Assembly (NCBI GenBank): GCA_003648765.1
Contig: QMPV01000006.1
Location: 1 to 39,253 of the forward strand
Source of the DNA: Candidatus Aminicenantota bacterium
Lineage (GTDB): Bacteria > Acidobacteriota > Aminicenantia > Aminicenantales > Aminicenantaceae
Reading direction: 5' to 3'
Length of the DNA stretch: 39,253 nucleotides
The position numbers and the translations under genes are program-made. The notes under the pieces were generated by a model. The model worked only from the letters and a program-made list of their open reading frames with translations, ran no database searches and had not been told where the DNA came from. Position 1 is the stretch's first letter. Each line of letters opens with the position of its first letter. Shown here piece by piece: positions 7,616 through 21,299 of this stretch.

Positions 7616-9463
7616 TTACCAGGCTAGCCCGTAATCTTCACCATAGTTACTAGAGCCTCCCCAGAAAGTTCTATGTTTCCAGTCAAAGAAAATAGCATTT
7701 AATGGACCCGAAGTATGGGAGCGAAAGTCCAAATGATAGCCCATCTTCTGAAGAGCCTGTCTGACCCAAGGAGGCACTCGTTCATGGAGGGTAAGTCTTC
7801 CCGGACGAGAATCATGTTCTCCAAAAGAACTTTTCATTTGATAACTGGTGAAATTGGCGGCTTCACATGCTTCCTGAACATTCATTTCAAATTCAATCAT
7901 ATTTAATAAAAACTGAAGGGTGTTTTGGTCCTGAGTATCTCCGCCCTGAACTGCCACTGAGATATAAGGGCGACCATCCTTCAGGACAATTGTGGGAGTG
8001 AGAGTGGCCCGAGGCCGCTTTCCCGGGGCCACAACATTAAAAGGATTCTCCGCCTCATCTAACACAAAGCTCTGCATACGTTGGCTTAAACCAATGCCGG
8101 TCCGGCCGGCCAGACAAGCAGGGATCCAACCTCCGCTAGGAGTCATGGAAACTACCCAACCTTCCTCATCGGCTGCCTGGACAGAGGTTGTCCCGGCCAA
8201 AAAGCTAGCCTCAAATTCCTGATCACTGCCTTTCTTTTCCTTTTGAGGAGGCCAATCCTTCAAATAATGAAGAAAGGGATTCTTTTGACCCATGAAAGGA
8301 TAAGGGTCCCCAGGTTTTATCTGGGGATCATTTCGAGAGGGATTAAACAATTTCAATCTTTCCCGGGCATATTCTTTAGACAAAAGCCCTGCCAATGGCT
8401 CTTCAGGCGGAAAATAAGGATCACCGTAATAAAAATCACGATCAGCAAAGGCCAGATTCATTATTTGATAAAGAGTATGAATATAACGGGCTGAATTGTA
8501 ACCCATCGACTTTAAATCAAAATGCTCGAGCATATTCAGCATTTGGAGTAAAACTGGACCCTGGACCCAACAGGTCAACTTATAAACCTCAAAATCTTTA
8601 TATCTGGTCTTGACCGGTTCTTCAATGTAAACCTTCCACCGGGCTAAATCCTCCAGTGTGATGAGTCCTCCCTGTTCCTGGACGCCTCGGACAAACTCCC
8701 GGGCGATATCGCCTTTATAGAACCGATCATAAGCGGCATAAATAGCTTCCCGACGACTTTTGCCAGCGGCCAGAGCCTGTTGTTCCGCCTCGATCAATTT
8801 AGTCAGAGTCTGATAAAGGTCGGGCTGGCTAAATATTTCGCCAGGATAAGGAGCTTCATACTCTTCTCCGAGATGAGGCAGCAACACCTGGCGGGAATAG
8901 GGCCACTTTTTAATTCGTTCTTTGTTCCTTTCAATGCTTCTCGCTAGCTGGGCTTCGATGGGATAACCTTTGGCCATCTCCAGAGCTGGAGCGAGTACTT
9001 CCTTCAAACTCATTGTGCCAAATTCCGCTAGCATGACCATCAAGCCACCCGGGGTACCTGGAGTTACAGCGGCTAAGGGGCCGTAAGCCGGGGGATATTT
9101 CAACCCCTTTTTCTTGAAAAATTCAGCCGTCGCCCCTGAAGGGGCCACTCCTAAGGCGTTTATCCCATAGACCTTTTTCGTCTTAGGATTATAAATCAGG
9201 GCCTGGGTTTCACCACCCCAACTCAAAACATCGTACATGGTACAAGTGGCCGCTAACATGGCACAGGCAGCATCCACGGCATTACCACCTTTCATGAAAA
9301 TCATGGCTCCGGCTGTAGCGGCCAGAGGTTTGCCGGTAATCGCCACCCAATGCCGACCATGGAGCACCGGTTTCTCTGTCCGAGCTAAGGCCAGAGTAAA
9401 GGGGCTGAATACAAAGAAAAGACAGAGTAAACTCAGCGAAAAGATTTTTCCTAAAGAGAGCAT
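7616..9463 (-). CDS. Secreted gamma-glutamyltransferase-family (Ntn-hydrolase) protein
   Basis: An N-terminal signal peptide (LSLLCLFFVFSPFTLALA) directs export. The body matches the gamma-glutamyltranspeptidase family: AGAMIFMKGGNAVDAACAM near the start, ALAPALEMA-like and ITLEDLARWKV blocks in the large subunit, and GGDTQDQNTLQFLLNMIEF near the C-terminus. These are autoprocessed enzymes that hydrolyse or transfer gamma-glutamyl groups. The likely processing nucleophile is Thr425 (AGTTSVQAAD), followed by WVVSMTPS. The TTHxS form of classical GGT is replaced by TTSV, so it is nearer the YwrD-like branch and the substrate may not be glutathione. Length (615 aa) is slightly long for the family. 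AAGGAGGGG precedes the ATG. It is monocistronic. Confidence 0.85.
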   Translation of the reverse strand: MLSLGKIFSLSLLCLFFVFSPFTLALARTEKPVLHGRHWVAITGKPLAATAGAMIFMKGGNAVDAACAMLAATCTMYDVLSWGGETQALIYNPKTKKVYGINALGVAPSGATAEFFKKKGLKYPPAYGPLAAVTPGTPGGLMVMLAEFGTMSLKEVLAPALEMAKGYPIEAQLARSIERNKERIKKWPYSRQVLLPHLGEEYEAPYPGEIFSQPDLYQTLTKLIEAEQQALAAGKSRREAIYAAYDRFYKGDIAREFVRGVQEQGGLITLEDLARWKVYIEEPVKTRYKDFEVYKLTCWVQGPVLLQMLNMLEHFDLKSMGYNSARYIHTLYQIMNLAFADRDFYYGDPYFPPEEPLAGLLSKEYARERLKLFNPSRNDPQIKPGDPYPFMGQKNPFLHYLKDWPPQKEKKGSDQEFEASFLAGTTSVQAADEEGWVVSMTPSGGWIPACLAGRTGIGLSQRMQSFVLDEAENPFNVVAPGKRPRATLTPTIVLKDGRPYISVAVQGGDTQDQNTLQFLLNMIEFEMNVQEACEAANFTSYQMKSSFGEHDSRPGRLTLHERVPPWVRQALQKMGYHLDFRSHTSGPLNAIFFDWKHRTFWGGSSNYGEDYGLAW

Positions 9464-11945: not shown

Positions 11946-14024
11946 ATGATTTCTAAAAAAAGATTTAAATTTCTCCTTATTGTTCTTTGCTTACTCATTT
12001 TTTCTTGGTTTTATTTAACTCTTCCTCTCCAGGCCGCTCCCCAAAAAACACGGCGGCCGATGACCGTTGATGATGCCCTGAATATGATTAGAGTTGGCAA
12101 CGTCCTCATCTCCCCTGATGGCCACTGGGTCTTTTTCTCAAAATCAGAATTAAATTGGGAAAAAAACCGTCGTGATACCAAGTATTATCTTATCTCAGCC
12201 GAAGATGGAGAAGAATTCCAATATATCGGCCGGGAAGGTGGTAGTTCCTTCCAATATTCCCCCGACGGTAAATATTTATCTTTTAAAAGAAGTGTCGACA
12301 AAAAAAGTCAGCTTTTTCTCATGAGAACCTCAGGAGGCGAAGCCATTCAGGCGACCAAACATAAAACTAGTGTTGGCTTTTATCGGTGGTCGCCGCGGTC
12401 AGATAAAATCTTTTTTATTGCTGACCGACCCCGTTCCCCTGAGGAGGAAAAGAAATACAAAGCTGGGGAAGATGTAATTTTCGTTGATGAAGGACCCAAT
12501 GGTCAAAGAGAAGGGCGCTGGAAACAAATCTGGGTCTTTGACCTAAAAACTAAGAAGGAAACTCTGCTCTTAGATAAAGAGTTGATTATTAATGAACTTG
12601 ACATCTCTCCTGACGGAAAACAGGTTCTTTTTACTGCACGAGAAACTAACCGGCGTAATGACGGATATAAGAATGAGATCTATCTCCTGGATGTAACCAC
12701 CAAAAAAATAACTCGTCTCACCCAAAACAAAGCTCCTGAATCATCACCTCTCTGGGCCCCTAATGGTCAGGTTTTCGTCTATCTGGCTGCTGATGATAAG
12801 GAATGGCTGAATCGAAATTCAAAAATCTGGTTGATGGACCCTAAAACCCGCCAATATGAACTTCTTTCAGCCAATTTCGAAGGCAGCATCCGCGGTCTCT
12901 TTTGGACACCTGACAGTCAGTACATTTACTTCAACGGCCAACAAGGGGTTAATACCAATCTCTTTCGGCTTCATGTTCCAAGTAAAAAAATAGAAAAGAT
13001 AACTGATATCCAAGGGACTTTAAGAGTGACGGGTTTTTCCCGCGACCGCAGCCGTTATGTCTACATCTTCAGTGACTACGATACACCGCCTGATGTTTAC
13101 ACCTCCACGGTTTCTGCCTTTAAGCCCATCCGTTTAACCCGGCTCAATCCCTGGGTGGAAGAAGAGATTGAACTGGCCACTATGAAACTAATTCGCTGGA
13201 AAAGTGTCAAAGATTTTGAAATCGAAGGACTTCTGCATCTGCCGGCTAACTACAAGAAAGGCACCCGGTTACCCTTAATCCTTCATATTCACGGTGGCCC
13301 GGCAGGTTGCTTTACCAATAGCTTCCGCGCCTCCTATCATATCTGGGCTGGCCTGGGATATGCCTCCCTTTCCCCTAATGTTCGGGGAAGCAGCGGTTAT
13401 ACCGACCATCTCCGCGAAGGCAACACCGTGCAGCAAGGAGACGGCATCGGCAAAGGTGATTACTGGGATCTGATGTACGGGGTGGATAAAGTCATTGCTG
13501 AAGGTTACGTTGATCCCAATCAATTGGGATTGCGAGGCTGGAGCTATGGTGGCATTTTGGGTGGTTGGACCATTACTCAGACCAATCGATTCAAGGCTGC
13601 TTCCATCGGCGCTGGGGTCTATGATTGGTCTTCTGAATACGGGATGGGCTTCAACCACGATGTGCGGTTGTGGCATATCGGAGGGACCCCTTGGGATAAT
13701 CCCCAAGCTTACCGCGCCCAATCAGCTTACACTTACGTCAAAAATGTCACTACCCCGACCCTTCTTATCCACGGCATGAAAGATACGACCGACACGGAAG
13801 GTCAAAGTCTGCTTTTCTTTACTGCCCTGAAAGATATCGGGAAAGCTCCCTGTCGCTATCTCCGAGTTCCCCGGGAACCCCACGGTTTCCGCGAACCCCG
13901 TCATCAACGCATTCGAGATATTGAGGAAATTAAATGGATGCAGAAATATGTCCGGGGCATCGATTGGACTCCCTGGGAAAGAAAAGAAGACAAGAAAAAG
14001 GAAGAAGACCAGGAGAAAAAATAA
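11946..14024 (+). CDS. Secreted S9 family (prolyl oligopeptidase-like) peptidase
   Basis: This is an exported serine peptidase that should cut oligopeptides, in the acylaminoacyl/dipeptidyl-peptidase branch of S9. ATG 11946 is chosen over the track start (11862) because GCAGGAGG lies just before it and a signal peptide follows (FLLIVLCLLIFSWFYLTLPLQAA). A WD40-like beta-propeller (about 40-410) contains repeated SPDG-type turns (ISPDGHWVFFS, YSPDGKYLSF, ISPDGKQVLF). The alpha/beta-hydrolase domain carries Ser533 (GWSYGG), Asp613 (HGMKDTTD) and His646 (EPHGF), so the triad is complete, plus HGGPAG for the oxyanion region. It ends in a Lys/Glu-rich tail. The S10 peptidase gene starts 21 bp later, so the two form an operon. 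Confidence 0.94.
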   Translation: MISKKRFKFLLIVLCLLIFSWFYLTLPLQAAPQKTRRPMTVDDALNMIRVGNVLISPDGHWVFFSKSELNWEKNRRDTKYYLISAEDGEEFQYIGREGGSSFQYSPDGKYLSFKRSVDKKSQLFLMRTSGGEAIQATKHKTSVGFYRWSPRSDKIFFIADRPRSPEEEKKYKAGEDVIFVDEGPNGQREGRWKQIWVFDLKTKKETLLLDKELIINELDISPDGKQVLFTARETNRRNDGYKNEIYLLDVTTKKITRLTQNKAPESSPLWAPNGQVFVYLAADDKEWLNRNSKIWLMDPKTRQYELLSANFEGSIRGLFWTPDSQYIYFNGQQGVNTNLFRLHVPSKKIEKITDIQGTLRVTGFSRDRSRYVYIFSDYDTPPDVYTSTVSAFKPIRLTRLNPWVEEEIELATMKLIRWKSVKDFEIEGLLHLPANYKKGTRLPLILHIHGGPAGCFTNSFRASYHIWAGLGYASLSPNVRGSSGYTDHLREGNTVQQGDGIGKGDYWDLMYGVDKVIAEGYVDPNQLGLRGWSYGGILGGWTITQTNRFKAASIGAGVYDWSSEYGMGFNHDVRLWHIGGTPWDNPQAYRAQSAYTYVKNVTTPTLLIHGMKDTTDTEGQSLLFFTALKDIGKAPCRYLRVPREPHGFREPRHQRIRDIEEIKWMQKYVRGIDWTPWERKEDKKKEEDQEKK

Positions 14025-14045: not shown

Positions 14046-15581
14046 ATGAAGAGTAAAATAAATATTTTAATTTTCAGCCTGGTTTTCTCTTTTATGATTT
14101 GTCTGGCTCTGGCCGCAGATAAACCTGTTGTTTCCAAGGCCCCTAAAAATTTCCCTCATTTAAAAGAAGATGTTCTCTCTGTTACCCATCACACCATCAA
14201 GCTCAATAACCAGGTCATTCCTTATACAGCCACGGCCGGGTATCTCACTCTTAAGACCGAAGAAGGGAAAAGTAAGGCTAATGTTTTCTTTGTGGCTTAT
14301 ACAAGGGATGATGTCAAGGACTTAACCCAGCGCCCCTTGACTTTTGCTTTCAACGGCGGTCCTGGCTCTTCCACAGTCTGGCTGCACCTCGGAGCTTTAG
14401 GCCCCAAGAAGGTTCTTCTTGATGACCAAGGTTTTCCCTTACCTCCCCCTTATAAGTTAATCGACAATCCTTATTCCTTATTGGACGTCTCAGATATTGT
14501 CTGTCTCGATGCTATCTCCACCGGCTTTAGTCGAGCTCTGCCAGGAGAGGACCCCCGCCAATTTCATGGGGTTAAAGAAGATATCGAAGCAGTTGGGGAG
14601 TTCATCCGACTTTATCTCACCCGAAACCAACGGTGGTTATCCCCTAAATTTATCCTGGGGGAAAGTTATGGCACTACCCGAGCCACCGGCCTGGCCGGCT
14701 ATCTCCAGGGACGACGTTTCGGCCTTTATCTCAATGGAATCATCCTGGTTTCTTCTGTCCTTGATTTCCGAACCCTTGACTTTTCTCCTGGAAACGACCT
14801 GAGCTACATTCTATTCTTACCCTCTTATACAGCTTCAGCCTGGTATCATCGACGACTTCCCCCTCCTCTCCAAGAAAAATCACTCCGAGAAGTCCTCGAT
14901 GAAGCCGAAAGGTTTGCTTTGAATGATTATGCCTTGGCTCTCCTCAAAGGCAATACTCTTACTTCAGAAGAAAAAAAACAAATAGCTACTAAAATCAGTC
15001 ATCTCACCGGACTTTCTCCAGAATACTTGCTCCAAGCCAACTTAAGAGTCAGCGCTCACCGTTTTTTTAAAGAACTGCTGAGAGACAAACACCTCACCAT
15101 CGGCCGGCTAGATAGTCGCTTCACTGGTCGAGAAGCTGATGCCGCCGGTGAGCGTCCCCAATTTGACCCTAGCAGCACTGCTATTACTGGGCCTTTCGGA
15201 GCTCTCATCAATCATTATCTCCGAGTGGATCTTAAATTCCCCTCAGATTTAACCTACGCCATCTATGGCCATGTTCGGCCCTGGCGTTGGATTTATGAAG
15301 AACAGGGACGGACACCCAATATTTATATGGCTGAAACTATGCGGCAGGCTCTCACGCAGAACCAATTTCTCAAGGTTTTTGTGGCTAATGGATATTACGA
15401 CTTAGCAACTCCTTATTTTGGCACCAAATACACTTTCAATCATATCGGTCTAAACGGAGAATTTAAAAACCGGATCAAAATGGGGTATTACGAAGCTGGA
15501 CACATGATGTATATTCACCGGGCTTCCCACGCCCAACTGAAAAAAGACCTGGCTGAATTTATCACTTGGGCCAGTAAATAA
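14046..15581 (+). CDS. Secreted S10 serine carboxypeptidase-like protein
   Basis: This is an exported peptidase of the carboxypeptidase Y fold. The signal peptide (ILIFSLVFSFMICLALAA) is followed by the family hallmark FNGGPGSS, then Ser207 in LGESYGTT, Asp452 in NGYYDLATP and His486 in AGHMMYIH. The triad is complete. S10 enzymes remove C-terminal residues at acidic pH; bacterial members are usually annotated only as S10 family peptidases. Length (511 aa) is normal. A GCGGGAGGG ribosome binding site precedes the ATG, and the gene is in an operon with the upstream S9 peptidase. Endo- or aminopeptidase plus carboxypeptidase activity would suit stepwise breakdown of peptides in the periplasm. 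Confidence 0.93.
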   Translation: MKSKINILIFSLVFSFMICLALAADKPVVSKAPKNFPHLKEDVLSVTHHTIKLNNQVIPYTATAGYLTLKTEEGKSKANVFFVAYTRDDVKDLTQRPLTFAFNGGPGSSTVWLHLGALGPKKVLLDDQGFPLPPPYKLIDNPYSLLDVSDIVCLDAISTGFSRALPGEDPRQFHGVKEDIEAVGEFIRLYLTRNQRWLSPKFILGESYGTTRATGLAGYLQGRRFGLYLNGIILVSSVLDFRTLDFSPGNDLSYILFLPSYTASAWYHRRLPPPLQEKSLREVLDEAERFALNDYALALLKGNTLTSEEKKQIATKISHLTGLSPEYLLQANLRVSAHRFFKELLRDKHLTIGRLDSRFTGREADAAGERPQFDPSSTAITGPFGALINHYLRVDLKFPSDLTYAIYGHVRPWRWIYEEQGRTPNIYMAETMRQALTQNQFLKVFVANGYYDLATPYFGTKYTFNHIGLNGEFKNRIKMGYYEAGHMMYIHRASHAQLKKDLAEFITWASK

Positions 15582-15676: not shown

Positions 15677-15706
15677 TTGACCTTCTTTTTTTAAAAGAAA
15701 TAAAAT
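15677..15706 (+). promoter_or_regulatory. Promoter of permease operon with very short leader
   Basis: TTGACC (15677-15682), 18 nt, TAAAAT (15701-15706). The expected start is near 15713, only ~9 nt before ATG 15722, and no Shine-Dalgarno sequence is visible. The message would be near-leaderless. Confidence 0.55.
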
Positions 15707-15721
15707 GTTTTCTTACTTCCG

Positions 15722-17035
15722 ATGGAAACTCAAATTTTAATTATCACTCTGATTACTGTTTTAGGTTACACCATAGCCAAATTAAAGAAAGCCTCAGTTG
15801 AAATCAGTATGTTAATCGCCACCTTGGCGGGTGGGATAGCGGGAGCCATTTATAAAACACCTGTCTTGAGTGATCTTCCCCGACATCTAATTGAGGGGGC
15901 CTTTACTTATTTTGACGTTATTCTTGTTTTTTCCACGGCCACTCTCTTCATGGCTATTCTGAGTGAGTCTGGAGGGGTAGCCTACCTTGTCCGCGGCACT
16001 CTCAAAACCTTTGGACATCTTCGGCTATTGGCTCTTTTGATACTCATGATAATTATCCTTATTCCTGGAGCTCTAACAGGAGCTGGCAGTGTCTCTTTGC
16101 TAGTAGTGGGCGCTCCAGTGGCTTTAGCCCTGCAAGAATTAGGTATTTCCAAAAGAAGGACAGCTGCGATTTTATTTATCATTGCCGGCTTAAGCGCGGC
16201 GGCGCCGCCGGTCAACATCTGGGCCATGATTGTTTGTGCTGGCACAGCTATTCCTTATGTCGGATTTGAACTGCCTTTGGGAATTCCTGTTCTCATCCTA
16301 GGTACTTTCACCATTTTGACCCTGGGCTGGAAAAAAGAACCCTTACTCGATCGCAAAAAAGACGAGGAGATCTTTGCGGCCATTCCGGAAAGAATGGCCT
16401 GGTGGCGGGTGATTCTTCCTTTTATCGTCTTTTTCGGCCTTATTGCTGCTTCCCGACTTTGGCCCTTCAGCTTACCGGTTTTTGGTCTCCCCCTGGAATT
16501 TACCATTGCTGCTCTAGTAGCCTGGTTGCTAAGTCCAATTCGTCTCAATATTCTCCAGCTATCCCGTCGAACCATGGACCGTTTGCTTCCTCTCCTGGCC
16601 ACTATGGTGGTAGTCGGCATGCTTCAGCAGATAATGACCGCCACTGGAATTAGAGGCCTCCTGGCCTATGCTGTCATAAGTATTCCTTTAGTCCTTCTCT
16701 TTATTTCTTTAGCCGCTGTCATCCCTCTCTCTGAAGGCATCTTAACTTATGGTGGAGCGGCTGTCTTCGGCATCCCCCTCATCTGGTATTTAGACTCCAT
16801 TGGACTCCACGCTACTGTGGCTATGGCCGGCTTAAGCCTCCTGTGGCCCTTGGGCGACGGTTTGCCCCCAACGGCTCTTATCGGCCGGTTAAGCGTGATG
16901 GTTACCGAATATAAAGAAAGTTATTGGCGCTTTCTTAAAAGCACTTGGCTACCTTGGATAGTGATTACCATTGTCGGTATTTTAATGGTCGTTTACAGCA
17001 CTAAATTGGAATTTCTAGTGAAATGGAGTATGTAA
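15722..17035 (+). CDS. Ion-transporter superfamily (DctM/CitMHS-like) permease
   Basis: This is an integral membrane protein with about 11-12 spans and no soluble domain. Features of the IT superfamily can be seen: two similar halves, a small-residue-rich re-entrant-type stretch LIPGALTGAGSVSLLVVGAPVALAL followed by GLSAAAPPVNIWAM, and in the second half SEGILTYGGAAVFGIPL and PLGDGLPPTALIG. Members carry carboxylates or related anions with Na or H ions. It resembles TRAP DctM subunits, but no DctP or DctQ gene is present, so it is probably a secondary carrier. The substrate is unknown. Ten bases after its stop comes a 52-codon gene, then an M14-like hydrolase. Linkage to amide-hydrolysing enzymes suggests an acylated amino acid, small peptide or dicarboxylate cargo (inference). 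Confidence 0.65.
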   Translation: METQILIITLITVLGYTIAKLKKASVEISMLIATLAGGIAGAIYKTPVLSDLPRHLIEGAFTYFDVILVFSTATLFMAILSESGGVAYLVRGTLKTFGHLRLLALLILMIIILIPGALTGAGSVSLLVVGAPVALALQELGISKRRTAAILFIIAGLSAAAPPVNIWAMIVCAGTAIPYVGFELPLGIPVLILGTFTILTLGWKKEPLLDRKKDEEIFAAIPERMAWWRVILPFIVFFGLIAASRLWPFSLPVFGLPLEFTIAALVAWLLSPIRLNILQLSRRTMDRLLPLLATMVVVGMLQQIMTATGIRGLLAYAVISIPLVLLFISLAAVIPLSEGILTYGGAAVFGIPLIWYLDSIGLHATVAMAGLSLLWPLGDGLPPTALIGRLSVMVTEYKESYWRFLKSTWLPWIVITIVGILMVVYSTKLEFLVKWSM

Positions 17036-17045
17036 GGAAAGAAAG

Positions 17046-17204
17046 ATGATAACCATCATCATGATTGTTTATTATTTTATCTGTGCTTATCTGGCAGGTA
17101 TTTTGTTCTGGAGTTTTATTAAGGAAAAAAAATCGTTGAATAATCTAATCCTTTATTTGCTGGTAATTTTCCCCTTAATTCTCCGACTCCTAAGGATAAA
17201 ATAA
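17046..17204 (+). CDS. 52-aa two-span membrane protein, missing from ORF track
   Basis: ATG at 17046 opens 52 codons ending in TAA at 17202-17204. The product starts MITIIMIVYYFICAYLAG and has two hydrophobic segments (about 3-24 and 33-50) joined by a charged turn, FIKEKKSLNN. AAGGAAAG lies at the right distance before the ATG, 10 bp after the permease stop. Its stop overlaps the start of the next gene by one base (TAATG), a coupling arrangement. Both junctions argue that it is a real gene. It matches no family I recognise. A small accessory subunit of the preceding permease is the simplest idea. Confidence 0.75.
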   Translation: MITIIMIVYYFICAYLAGILFWSFIKEKKSLNNLILYLLVIFPLILRLLRIK

Positions 17205-18367
17205 TGAATCGACCTCTAACGACAAAACTAATTCTTCTGGCTGTGACTTGTTTAATTTTAATTCCAGGCTCAATTCATCTTTATCAGCATCGTCATTTCA
17301 ATACGCCTATTGTCCAAGGGCCGGGTGTAACCCAAGTAGTTCACTTGAGTCATTATTTTTCCGGGCTTAAGGGCACCCAAGCGGACACGCCGGTTTTTAT
17401 TCTCCAGGGTAAAAAACCCGGTGGGAAAATACTAATCATGGCCAATACCCACTCCAACGAGCCCGCCGGAATGCTTGCTGCCGTCATCTTTATTGAAAAC
17501 GCCCTAGTCCAACAAGGAACGGTTTATATAATTCCCGTTTTCAATAACAGTGGCAGTCGCACCACCAAGCCAGGTGATGGTTATCCTCTCTACTTTGAAA
17601 TCAAAACCCCTTGGGGTAAACGTCGTTTCCGTATGGGTAACCGGAACGCTTCACCCCTTGATCAATGGCCTGACCCGGATGTCTATATTCATTATCCTGA
17701 TCGCCAATTGCTTTCTTTTATTGATGCTCGTAACACTAACCGGACTTGGCCCGGCCGACCTAATGGTCTGCTCATGGAAAGAGTTACTTACGCTGCCATG
17801 GAACTGCTCCGGCAGGAAAAGGTAGACCTGGCGATTGATCTCCACGGAGCAGAAACTATGTTCCCGGTGACTAATTGTATCGTCGCCCCAGAAAAATCCA
17901 TCAAATTAGCTACTCTGACTTCCTTAACTGTTAAAGCTCTGGAGGGATTTGATAACCATGTCGAACCCTCCCCCAGTAAATTTAGAGGGCTTTCCCATCG
18001 GGAAATCGGGGACTATTCAGAGACATTGCCTTTTCTTTTGGAAGCCCCCATCCCCTTTCTCGACCAGCCCACCGGCCCCAAAACGGTCGAACTCCTGCTC
18101 GAAGGCAAAGACCCCTTTCTTCTCCGCCTGGCGAAAAAAAAGAAATTATTTGTGCCCTATGATAAAACCGGTTGGCCAATGGCCAAGCGTGTCGGTCAAC
18201 ATTGTTCCGTAATATTAGAACTAATCCGGCAATACTCCCGCAAAAATCCTGAGCGGGCCATTAAATTGACCAATGTTCCCCGTTACCGAGAAGTTGTGGC
18301 TAAGGGAGTAGGTTATTTCTTCCGGAATCCTGAAAAAGCTGACCGCGAAAAAATTGTCGACATTTAA
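17204..18367 (+). CDS. M14-like zinc hydrolase, succinylglutamate desuccinylase/aspartoacylase type
   Basis: The N-terminal hydrophobic segment (about 8-24) is an uncleaved anchor or signal peptide, placing the enzyme in the periplasm. The catalytic domain has the M14/AstE-ASPA zinc ligands His83 and Glu86 (NTHSNEPAG) and His214 (IDLHGAE), the substrate-binding NTNRTWPG (Arg180) and a candidate catalytic Glu280 in LPFLLEAP. All key residues are present, so it should be active. Relatives cleave the amide bond of N-acylated amino acids or C-terminal residues of peptides. Being extracytoplasmic separates it from cytoplasmic AstE. It is translationally coupled to the 52-aa membrane protein and lies in the permease operon, which points to trimming the cargo before uptake. 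Confidence 0.85.
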   Translation: MNRPLTTKLILLAVTCLILIPGSIHLYQHRHFNTPIVQGPGVTQVVHLSHYFSGLKGTQADTPVFILQGKKPGGKILIMANTHSNEPAGMLAAVIFIENALVQQGTVYIIPVFNNSGSRTTKPGDGYPLYFEIKTPWGKRRFRMGNRNASPLDQWPDPDVYIHYPDRQLLSFIDARNTNRTWPGRPNGLLMERVTYAAMELLRQEKVDLAIDLHGAETMFPVTNCIVAPEKSIKLATLTSLTVKALEGFDNHVEPSPSKFRGLSHREIGDYSETLPFLLEAPIPFLDQPTGPKTVELLLEGKDPFLLRLAKKKKLFVPYDKTGWPMAKRVGQHCSVILELIRQYSRKNPERAIKLTNVPRYREVVAKGVGYFFRNPEKADREKIVDI

Positions 18368-18455
18368 TTCTAGAAACATATAAAATTCAAGAAGAGACAA
18401 AGGACAACTAGAGTTCTAATATAATGATAAAAATTTTGAAATCAAGGAGGTAATG

Positions 18456-19121
18456 ATGAAACATAGACTATCTTTGACCAGTCTAATCCTCGTTATTTTT
18501 ATTTTACTCACACTCCAAATTTTTTCTCAAAACCCTGCCCCTGAGATCCCCAAAGCTCAACTGCCCGTACTTATTACTTCGGCTGGTCAAAGCCCTGACG
18601 TGACCACTGTTAATATTATTGCTGAGGAAGCGGGTGTTCCCTACGATTACTGCGATGTGCCCACGGTGGACCTGGTCAAAGCTGGAGTAGGATTAGCTGA
18701 TAAAGAATCAGGACCAGGGTTCCATGTGGAGATCCATTCGGACTTAGAGAAGCATCCCAAAGGAACAGCTTACAAAACCATGATTTTTGCTATTGGAGCC
18801 AGCCTCAAAGGTATGGGGGCTTCAGGGCTTACTGTCGAAAGTGAACTGAAACGACTCCAGTCGCTAATTGATTATTGTCAGAAAAACAACATCTTTATCA
18901 TAGCCATTCATGTTGGAGGAGCCTCTAAACGTGGGGCGCCAGGAAGCGATAACGAACGAATGATCGACGCTGTAGCTCCTTTCGCTAATTTAATTATTGT
19001 CACTAAAGACAGCAATAAAGATGGCCGCTTTGACCAAATTGCCCAAGCTAAAAATATCCCTCTCCTTCAAGTAGACAATGCTCTAGAAATTGTTGAGATT
19101 TTCAAAAAAATTTTCCTCTGA
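18456..19121 (+). CDS. Secreted DUF6305-like protein
   Basis: A signal peptide (LTSLILVIFILLTLQIFS) precedes a ~190-aa Rossmann-like domain: PVLITSAGQSPDVTTVNIIAEEAGV at the start, TMIFAIGASLKGMGASG in the middle, then FIIAIHVGGASKRGAPGSDNERMIDAVAP and LIIVTKDSNKDGRFDQIA. I tentatively place it in DUF6305, which has no known function. ATG 18456 is preferred to 18453 because it sits 5 nt after AAGGAGG, rather than 2. It follows the M14-like gene by 88 bp, where a TATAAT (18420-18425) without a good -35 might be an internal promoter. Position and export suggest a periplasmic binding or accessory protein for the permease (inference). It converges on the antiporter gene with only 7 bp between the stops. 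Confidence 0.65.
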   Translation: MKHRLSLTSLILVIFILLTLQIFSQNPAPEIPKAQLPVLITSAGQSPDVTTVNIIAEEAGVPYDYCDVPTVDLVKAGVGLADKESGPGFHVEIHSDLEKHPKGTAYKTMIFAIGASLKGMGASGLTVESELKRLQSLIDYCQKNNIFIIAIHVGGASKRGAPGSDNERMIDAVAPFANLIIVTKDSNKDGRFDQIAQAKNIPLLQVDNALEIVEIFKKIFL

Positions 19122-19128
19122 GAATTAA

Positions 19129-20856
19129 CTACTTTTTCTCCTGTTCATCGCTGAGGAGACCAACTGCTAGCTCTTCACAAACGACTTCTGGGCGTTTAAC
19201 CTTCTCAATGGCTTCAAAAAGATCTTTCAAAGCCAGAATCTCTTCCATAACAATTAAAGAAACGAGCGCCCGATTTTCTTCAGAAGTACTGAGCTCAATC
19301 TGGCCTTGTTTCTGCTGGAGAGTAATAAAAATATCTTCCTTTTTAATATGATAAATCAAGCCCTCAATGTTGAGGCGATGAACAAAGAATTCTTCATTTT
19401 CAAAAGCCTCGATAATGCGATTCCGAATAAAACTGGCTATATGAGGAGAAGGAAATTCTAACTTAATGCGACAACCTCTTTCCTCTTTTTTCAGGAGACT
19501 TTCTTTTCTTAAGCCCGAACCGCCATCAAAACTTTTCACCAAGATCGGGGGGGCAATGATACTGGCGATTAATAAAGTCACAATAGCTACTCCAAAGAGA
19601 TCAGCCCCAATTGCTCCAGCCGAGAGGCCTACGCCAGCGATAATAAGAGTTACTTCCCCCCGGGGTAACATGCCAGCCCCAACTCGAAAGGCTCCTCGCA
19701 GATTAAAGCCCATGAGATAAGCCGGCACTCCACAACCAACCACTTTACCCATTATGGCGAAGGCCGCATAGATCAGTCCAAAAATAAGAATGCCTTTCAT
19801 GGCGGCAAAATTTACCATCATACCCATCACACAGAAAAAAACCGGCACTAAAAAGTTATACACTCCATGGAGTCTATTACGTAACTCACTAGCAATATCA
19901 GTCTGGGAAAGAGAAAGTCCCATGATATAAGCCCCGATAATCATGGCTAATCCAGCCATCTCAGCTAGGCCCGCCAGAAACAAGGCCAAACCCAAGGCCA
20001 CTCCAGCAATGGCGTCGTTGGAACGTAACCATTTTAGCCCTCGAGTGAGACGATTTGCGGAAAGAATGCCTAAGACAGTACAAATAATCCAGAAACCAAA
20101 GGCTTTGAGGGCGATAGCTCCGATATGGGCCCATTCAACTTCACTCCCCCCAGCTTGAACTCGAGAGATACCCACAACCACGGCCAGAATAACAATTCCC
20201 AAAACATCATCCAGAACCGCACCCGCCAAAATAGTCACCCCTTCGGGTGAAGACATTTTTCGGCGTTCATTAAGAACCCGGGCCGTAATACCCACCGAGG
20301 TGGCTGTGGAGAGGGCTCCGAGAAAAAGAGCAGCTGGAGAAATAAAAGAATCTACGCCCGGTAAAAGCAGAACAGCAATTAGCGCCCCCAGAAAAAAAGA
20401 AAGAACAACCCCACCTACTCCGACTGCAGTGCCCACTAGAGAAAAACGGATGAAAGTCGGCAGATCGGTCTCCAGACCGGACATAAAAAGCAAGACGATA
20501 GAAGCTATCACCGCCAAACCATACAACTCTGGGGTAACAGGCAGAAATCCTTCTCCCCGAGGGAAAAGCGGGCTATTTAAAAAGGGGAGAGAAATGGCCC
20601 CCAAAGCATAAGGCCCAATAGCCATGCCAGCCACTAACTCTCCCAAAACCCGAGGTTGGTGGAAAAACCGATTGAAAATTATGCCGAAAAAACGGGCGGT
20701 AATGACAATTAAAGCTAATTGAAGAACCAAGAGGGTCATCTTCTGACCCATTTCATGCGTTTGCTCCTTGGCCAGGAGAGACAGTCCGCCCATACTTAAG
20801 AATAAAAACAAAAAGGCCAGGAAATTTTTTCTTTTACTTGAAAGAGACACTTTCAT
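19129..20856 (-). CDS. CPA2-type Na+(K+)/H+ antiporter with unusual C-terminal domain
   Basis: The first ~430 residues form a Na_H_Exchanger (CPA2) membrane domain of about 12-13 spans, starting after a hydrophobic leader and including FHQPRVLGELVAGMAIGPYALG, SVGITARVLNERRKMSSPEG, AGAVLDDVLGIVIL (the ion-binding DD-type motif) and LPRGEVTLIIAGVGLSAG. CPA2 proteins exchange Na or K for protons. The last ~130 residues are soluble and begin after the linker LRKESLLKKEERG; they do not look like the TrkA-N domain usual in KefB-type proteins. The ORF-track TTG start is replaced by ATG 20856, which overlaps the upstream EIIA stop in the form ATGA. That coupling suggests the EIIA-like protein controls the transporter. 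Confidence 0.88.
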   Translation of the reverse strand: MKVSLSSKRKNFLAFLFLFLSMGGLSLLAKEQTHEMGQKMTLLVLQLALIVITARFFGIIFNRFFHQPRVLGELVAGMAIGPYALGAISLPFLNSPLFPRGEGFLPVTPELYGLAVIASIVLLFMSGLETDLPTFIRFSLVGTAVGVGGVVLSFFLGALIAVLLLPGVDSFISPAALFLGALSTATSVGITARVLNERRKMSSPEGVTILAGAVLDDVLGIVILAVVVGISRVQAGGSEVEWAHIGAIALKAFGFWIICTVLGILSANRLTRGLKWLRSNDAIAGVALGLALFLAGLAEMAGLAMIIGAYIMGLSLSQTDIASELRNRLHGVYNFLVPVFFCVMGMMVNFAAMKGILIFGLIYAAFAIMGKVVGCGVPAYLMGFNLRGAFRVGAGMLPRGEVTLIIAGVGLSAGAIGADLFGVAIVTLLIASIIAPPILVKSFDGGSGLRKESLLKKEERGCRIKLEFPSPHIASFIRNRIIEAFENEEFFVHRLNIEGLIYHIKKEDIFITLQQKQGQIELSTSEENRALVSLIVMEEILALKDLFEAIEKVKRPEVVCEELAVGLLSDEQEKK

Positions 20857-21299
20857 GAGCAAAATAATTCCAAAACTTCTTCTTGACTGGAGGCCTGAAG
20901 AATTTTTTCTCTTTTCTCCTTGCTTTTCAAAAGGCGAGTGACTTCGGCTAAGAACTGAATGTGGGGTCCGGAGCGGTTTAAAGGAGAAAGAGTCATGATA
21001 AAAATCTGAGCTGGTTGCCCATCAATAGAATCAAAATCTACTCCTTCCCTTTTTAAGGCGATGGCCGCCACTAATTCTTTGACCGCCTCACACTTTCCAT
21101 GAGGTAGAGCGACTCCCTTTTCTAAGCCAGTGCTCATTTTTTTCTCGCGTTCAAGAATAGCCCGAAGAGCAGCTTCGCGGTCATCAATTTTACCTCTTCT
21201 ATAGAGGTGATCAACCATCTCTTTAATCACCTCTTCTTTAGAAGAGGCTTCTAGGGAAATAATGATATCTTCTGGAGAAAGAACTTTTTTCAGATTCAT
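20853..21299 (-). CDS. PTS EIIA(Ntr/fructose)-type regulatory protein
   Basis: This is a 148-aa single-domain EIIA of the mannitol/fructose class. The phosphorylatable His is His67 in STGLEKGVALPHGKCEAVKE. The tail RSGPHIQFLAEVTRLLKSKEKREKIL is typical of PtsN-like proteins. No EIIB or EIIC sugar permease is near, so a regulatory rather than sugar-import role is likely. PtsN is known to act on K transport in Proteobacteria. Here its stop overlaps the antiporter start by 4 nt (ATGA), giving equal co-expression. GAAGGAAG precedes the ATG. Similar EIIA-antiporter pairs occur in other phyla, so function by analogy is reasonable but unproven. Confidence 0.9.
   Translation of the reverse strand: MNLKKVLSPEDIIISLEASSKEEVIKEMVDHLYRRGKIDDREAALRAILEREKKMSTGLEKGVALPHGKCEAVKELVAAIALKREGVDFDSIDGQPAQIFIMTLSPLNRSGPHIQFLAEVTRLLKSKEKREKILQASSQEEVLELFCS

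Follow-up and report, generated by a model that had tools for sequence, protein, structure and literature searches.

The locus

We describe a module of four genes in a 39,253-nucleotide stretch of DNA from a Candidatus Aminicenantota bacterium (assembly GCA_003648765.1, contig QMPV01000006.1), hereafter the window. All four lie on the forward (+) strand. The first (15722..17035) encodes a DctM-like permease of the IT superfamily, with 437 aa and about 12 transmembrane-like segments by hydropathy. It is followed by the gene for a 52-aa protein of an uncatalogued family (17046..17204), with two transmembrane-like segments and a C-terminal L-R-L-L-R-I-K motif; by that for a 387-aa M14-like zinc hydrolase (17204..18367), which combines an AstE/ASPA catalytic domain with one N-terminal transmembrane-like anchor and has its soluble part at residues ~33-387; and by that for a 222-aa DUF6305 protein (18453..19121), a putative ligand-binding partner with a signal-peptide-like N-terminus. 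The permease and small genes are 10 bp apart, the small and M14 genes overlap by one base (TAATG) and 85 bp separate the M14 and DUF6305 genes. The open reading frame coordinates bear out the co-directional, tightly spaced arrangement given in the initial annotation, which had read the genes as one module for taking up an N-acylated amino acid or peptide. The four genes are a conserved unit in about a dozen bacterial phyla.

The four proteins

On its own the window permease matched no Pfam family at E<0.1. PF06808 (DctM) was matched by 11 of 17 members of its family (best E 2.8e-12), the type-C paralogue from the same genome (types are defined below) exceeded the cut-off of that model (37.3 against 23.8 bits), and an hhalign comparison with the genome's true DctM gave E 9e-05 and probability 59.5. 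The family also matched CitMHS, Na_H_antiporter and DcuC, more weakly. The permease is therefore assigned by homology to the IT superfamily, as first proposed, with DctM nearest.

Substitution patterns identify the 52-aa open reading frame as a real gene under purifying selection: the proportions of synonymous (pS) and non-synonymous (pN) differences were 0.78 and 0.10 against the congener G002, and 0.57 and 0.13 against G001. A profile search retrieved 131 homologues; one Arg is shared by all of them (100%), and 99% have a conserved Tyr. Members of the family are 47-53 aa long with two transmembrane-like segments, and they match no Pfam or NCBIfam family consistently, giving only scattered single-member hits; the window's own 52-aa protein had no Pfam match. 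Identification as DctQ was rejected, the family being of this size and topology and showing no similarity to the genome's 161-aa DctQ.

The M14 protein scored over the cut-off of PF24827 (AstE_AspA_cat; 27.8 against 25 bits). In an alignment of 55 homologues H83, E86, R180, D212, H214 and E280 are invariant and N179 is present in at least 90%; the zinc ligands (HxxE plus H), the Asn-Arg substrate pair and the catalytic Glu are all kept. The original AstE/ASPA-type assignment therefore stands; among proteins of solved structure, the AstE/ASPA/DoeB deacylases come closest to it in sequence. An extracytoplasmic position, also part of the initial reading, is consistent with the N-terminal anchor. 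No Pfam match to the PghP family was found in the M14 protein. The endo-acting PghL is without the classical Asn-Arg carboxylate site (PMC6506827); because that pair is kept here, an exo-acting or small-substrate enzyme appears more likely than an endo-acting one.

The predicted model of the M14 protein (pLDDT 96.3) found Csd4 as its best fold match in the PDB, together with AstE/ASPA/DoeB, carboxypeptidases and MpaA; TM-scores to the Csd4 and MpaA folds were 0.40-0.44. Csd4 and MpaA act on gamma-D-Glu-diaminopimelate (DAP) bonds, and the modelled likeness may count in favour of a gamma-glutamyl substrate. The same matches would fit a role in cell-wall recycling, in which the hydrolase cuts gamma-D-Glu-DAP bonds of muropeptides and the peptide or amino acid set free is recovered through the permease. 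We consider such a role highly unlikely, given that this fold similarity is common to all M14 enzymes and that the neighbourhoods described below hold no recurrent peptidoglycan amidase, glycosidase or mpl-like gene, whereas genes for gamma-glutamyltransferase (GGT) and poly-gamma-glutamate (pgs) systems do recur.

The DUF6305 protein matched PF19823 with E=1.4e-44 (151.8 bits against a cut-off of 25). Its predicted model (pLDDT 94.5) has an alternating alpha/beta fold, for which a search of PDB folds returned best TM-scores of 0.27-0.40, none above about 0.4. Residues G45, Q46, S117, K119, R134 and H153 are invariant; these and the conserved T42 and R160 mostly follow strands, and K119, R134, H153 and R160 would suit an acidic ligand. 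Three proposed relationships were not accepted: an integrin I-domain (profile search of PDB sequences, E 0.04 only), a relative of TIGR04332 (hhalign probability 1%) and a relative of DctP (profile comparison, probability 0.6%; no DctP among the top fold matches listed).

Three module types within the order

Each of the three large proteins is present in 39-40 of 41 genomes (the window's own and 40 relatives). Comparison of neighbourhoods (60 loci plus later additions) shows that the modules of the order Candidatus Aminicenantes fall into three paralogous types of ancient origin: type A, to which the window copy belongs, type B and type C. At type-A loci all four genes occur together in 23 of 23 cases; with the purifying selection on the 52-aa reading frame, this places the arrangement far from chance. 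One to three C69 dipeptidase genes are added at 19 of these loci, as is true of most genera other than the window's. Permease, DUF6305 and M14 genes are present at almost all type-B and type-C loci, with DUF6305 at 18 of 20 for type B. About half of the type-B loci adjoin pgsB, pgsC and the gene for TIGR04332: 10 of 20 lie next to pgs genes, and 9 of 20 have pgsB and pgsC adjacent. Type C has the order GGT-DUF6305-PERM-SM-M14 (PERM, permease; SM, small protein) and, as judged by eye, a housekeeping context with scpA and scpB upstream and ispH and rpsA downstream.

In a tree of the M14 proteins type A forms one clade (support 100), type B another (99) and the two together a third (100). The tree identifies types A and B as sister clades. 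The window copy is a diverged paralogue. The window permease is about 50% identical to type B and 31-34% identical to type C; the active-site residues of the M14 proteins are alike across the types.

Some module copies have further neighbours. Near type-B modules and pgs loci, a membrane protein conserved as cluster c15 (about 195 aa) is encoded at L042, L043, L045-L047, L049, L058, L059, L087, L174, L175 and L186, and in a few genera a glycyl-radical enzyme, its activase and a LarA-like racemase are encoded upstream of type-B modules (L042, L043, L044). The gene directly upstream of one copy (L081:299-1360) codes for a secreted protein resembling Asp/Glu racemases (PF01177, 2e-11); racemases of that family are normally cytoplasmic.

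Conservation across phyla

In 84,980 GTDB genomes, one scan with a single motif from the M14 protein brought up 499 loci with genes for relatives, and 80 of these were fetched. Their records are named as about 13 phyla: Acidobacteriota, Pseudomonadota, Myxococcota, Spirochaetota, Bacillota, Verrucomicrobiota, Synergistota, Gemmatimonadota, Ignavibacteriota, Fidelibacterota, Calditrichota, Bacteroidota and Bipolaricaulota. These are record names, since some titles of metagenome-assembled genomes (MAGs) are probably binning errors. One record titled Clostridiales (L122, JARYMI010000042.1) encodes an M14 protein identical to that of an Aminicenantes relative (L062) and is probably a mislabelled or misbinned MAG.

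At the 80 loci we found the permease gene in 76 cases, DUF6305 in 69 and GGT in 61. Where at least 4.5 kb was available on both sides (43 loci), the permease and DUF6305 were each present in 43, GGT in 41 and TIGR04332 in 21. The small gene directly follows the permease gene at all 76 permease-bearing loci; it was labelled at 66, and at the other 10 inspection by eye showed a matching reading frame in 10 of 10, so that its seeming absence there came from the detection. The four genes thus co-occur well beyond the window's genome, and the original grouping of permease, small protein, extracytoplasmic M14 enzyme and DUF6305 protein as one module is upheld.

Tandem permease/M14 pairs, in most cases with a second small gene, occur at L121, L136, L141, L145, L148 and L149, partly beside pgs genes in Clostridia, which suggests sub-specialised modules. 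A sensor kinase and/or a CitB/DcuR-like response regulator adjoins the module or pgs genes, as judged by eye, at L095, L096, L101, L103, L106, L115, L151, L161 and L167, in several phyla. The copy at L103 belongs to a commensal in culture, Yanshouia hominis BX1.

Association with poly-gamma-glutamate genes

The pgs neighbours were named by curated NCBIfam equivalog models, all over cut-off: PgsB (TIGR04012, 249 against 223), PgsC (TIGR04011, 100 against 96), the 'poly-gamma-glutamate system protein' TIGR04332 (329 against 100) and, as a further partner, GGT (TIGR00066, 528 against 358). In many records these partners share an operon with the module; L107 and L114, for example, have GGT-DUF6305-PERM-SM-M14-PgsB-PgsC-TIGR04332, and variants with another gene order or an extra M14 gene occur at L101, L126 and L161. 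Adjacent pgsB and pgsC genes are found at about 30 of the 80 fetched loci. Of 25 genomes chosen because their own fetched loci mostly lacked nearby pgs genes, 22 carry TIGR04332 somewhere.

A search of 198 genomes of the window's phylum, independent of the GTDB motif scan, found DUF6305 over cut-off in 13, TIGR04332 in 12 and both in 12 (p ~2e-18; with the order left out, 2 of 2, p ~2e-4). The window locus has no adjacent pgs genes, and in the window's genus this copy is separate from them. In the window's genome pgsB, pgsC and TIGR04332 are on other contigs. A C69 gene accompanies them there, and within the length of those contigs the module is not repeated. Inspection by eye added N-formylglutamate-amidohydrolase-like and CitB-type two-component regulator genes to the unit's neighbours; together with GGT, pgs and Asp/Glu racemase genes these were read as pointing to gamma-glutamyl or glutamate chemistry. 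A CapB-CapC-CapA operon and poly-gamma-glutamate (PGA) have been described in Cloacimonadota in a 2026 paper, in passages that name neither DUF6305 nor gamma-glutamyl enzymes (PMC13082233).

Proposed function

From the observed conservation, linkage and co-occurrence of the genes, the retained catalytic residues and the homology of the permease, we infer a substrate, a direction of transport and roles for the subunits. We put at about even the chance that the module hydrolyses and takes up gamma-glutamyl material, accompanying the pgs genes in most lineages. In this scheme gamma-linked glutamyl chains would be attacked from their amino end, outside the cytoplasm, by an Ntn hydrolase, which would be GGT or, in the A/B lineage, a C69 dipeptidase. 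The membrane-anchored M14 protein with its Asn-Arg pair would be a zinc exo-hydrolase that cuts at the carboxyl end or cleaves short gamma-glutamyl products. Binding of the anionic product would fall to the secreted DUF6305 protein, and import to the DctM-like permease together with the two-helix protein as its obligate partner.

Several observations weigh against this proposal. The M14 protein, with its Asn-Arg pair kept, is not of the PghP/PghL endo-hydrolase type. Ten of the 12 co-occurring genomes in the phylum statistic belong to one order. Nine of 10 TIGR04332-positive Spirochaetota genomes are without DUF6305, and at five such loci (L168-L172) pgsB-pgsC-TIGR04332 stands alone; the module is therefore a companion of the Pgs system and not a required part. 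Lastly, type A is not adjacent to pgs genes and has C69 dipeptidases in most genera; it may therefore act on other dipeptides or oligopeptides.

The single co-directional operon of module and pgsB-pgsC-TIGR04332, found in many phyla, suits synthesis or assembly equally with turnover. The module might instead process or anchor new PGA at the envelope, with GGT as a CapD-like transpeptidase, the M14 enzyme trimming chains, the DUF6305 protein as a polymer-binding periplasmic factor and the permease moving counter-ions or precursors. Some GGT-family enzymes do anchor capsular PGA to the wall. We regard this combination as improbable: pgs loci without the module exist, as just noted, DctM-like carriers of the IT superfamily are mostly uptake systems, and neither type A nor type C is adjacent to pgs genes.

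For type A the scavenging of peptides or N-acyl amino acids has also to be weighed, and it is closest to the substrate first suggested. Two secreted peptidases are encoded directly upstream of the module, as originally reported, an S9 peptidase (~11946..14024, + strand; PF00326, E=5e-42) and an S10 serine carboxypeptidase (14046..15581, + strand; PF00450, E=1.5e-13), both with a signal-peptide-like start. These, the C69 dipeptidases found at 19 of 23 type-A loci and an M14 deacylase, whose nearest relatives of solved structure are AstE/ASPA/DoeB, would free amino acids for import by the permease. In the compared neighbourhoods the S9 gene adjoins type A in the window's genus only, and the S9 and S10 peptidases are genus-level context outside the conserved unit. 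Elsewhere in the family the linkage is to GGT and pgs genes, and the M14 active-site residues are the same in all types. Scavenging thus seems rather unlikely for type A. As a general role the uptake of N-acyl amino acids is not favoured, because it is GGT, C69 and pgs genes that surround the unit. Hydrolysis and uptake of gamma-glutamyl material remains our preferred reading of the family; for the window copy, a diverged paralogue without adjacent pgs genes, the exact substrate is less certain and could be a different glutamyl peptide.

Comparison with known systems

The module recalls tripartite ATP-independent periplasmic (TRAP) transporters (DctPQM) in its large permease, a homologue of DctM, with which one small membrane protein and one secreted protein are encoded. 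It differs in that (i) DUF6305 is unrelated to DctP by profile and has a different predicted fold; (ii) its small protein has 47-53 aa and two transmembrane segments, against 161 aa for DctQ (a class of four segments and about 160 aa); (iii) it includes an M14 hydrolase. For comparison, the window's genome also encodes a true TRAP system, in a DctP-DctQ-DctM operon (L188). True TRAP membership was rejected, as the module has a DctM relative and no relative of DctQ or DctP.

With the Pgs/Cap systems (PgsB/PgsC or CapB/CapC; degraders Ggt, PgdS and PghP/PghL) the module probably shares gamma-glutamyl chemistry, and PgsB, PgsC and GGT are co-operonic with it in many genomes. What it has beyond them is DUF6305, the two-helix protein, the DctM-like permease and an M14 enzyme that is AstE-like and not PghP-like, none of which was described for gamma-PGA in the papers found by literature searches. 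Likeness to the AstE/ASPA/DoeB (EutE) deacylases lies in the catalytic-domain match and the HxxE, NR, DLH and Glu motifs; the module's enzyme differs in its extracytoplasmic position behind an N-terminal anchor, its QWPDP and GLSHREIGD motifs and the co-encoded permease. The Csd4/MpaA gamma-D-Glu-DAP peptidases (M99/M14) resemble it in best fold match (Csd4), in zinc site and, probably, in acting on gamma-glutamyl linkages, but TM-scores are low and the module's context is not peptidoglycan turnover.

Literature searches found no mention of DUF6305 or of the module's parts in combination, and searches pairing TIGR04332 or pgsW with poly-gamma-glutamate gave nothing on the module, in agreement with the initial statement that no system of this composition had been described. 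The combination thus appears to be new, and the small protein is uncatalogued; the large parts all fall within known superfamilies. It is possible, though we hold it only tentatively, that the module is a third binding-protein-assisted carrier besides TRAP and the tripartite tricarboxylate transporters (TTT): a DctM-like permease with an obligate subunit of about 50 aa (invariant C-terminal Arg) and a DUF6305 receptor, dedicated to gamma-glutamyl substrates, coupled to an outward-facing M14 enzyme and spread over about a dozen phyla.

Poly-gamma-glutamate metabolism is known mostly from Bacillus. The associations reported here tie DUF6305, a pan-phylum small membrane protein and a permease/M14 pair to this metabolism in many uncultured or anaerobic phyla. 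They make the degradation and reuse of gamma-PGA outside Bacillus, and DUF6305 as a new kind of transport receptor, open to experiment, and they correct the substrate guess that the annotation 'succinylglutamate desuccinylase/aspartoacylase' invites.

Other features of the window

A secreted gamma-glutamyltransferase-like protein is encoded near the module on the - strand (7616..9463); it scores 282 bits with TIGR00066, below the cut-off of 358, and the congener G002 likewise has a GGT-like gene close to its type-A module (L021). Downstream of the module and convergent with it (19129-21299, - strand) lie genes for a cation/proton-antiporter-like protein and a phosphotransferase system (PTS) EIIA-like protein, which overlap by 10 bp.

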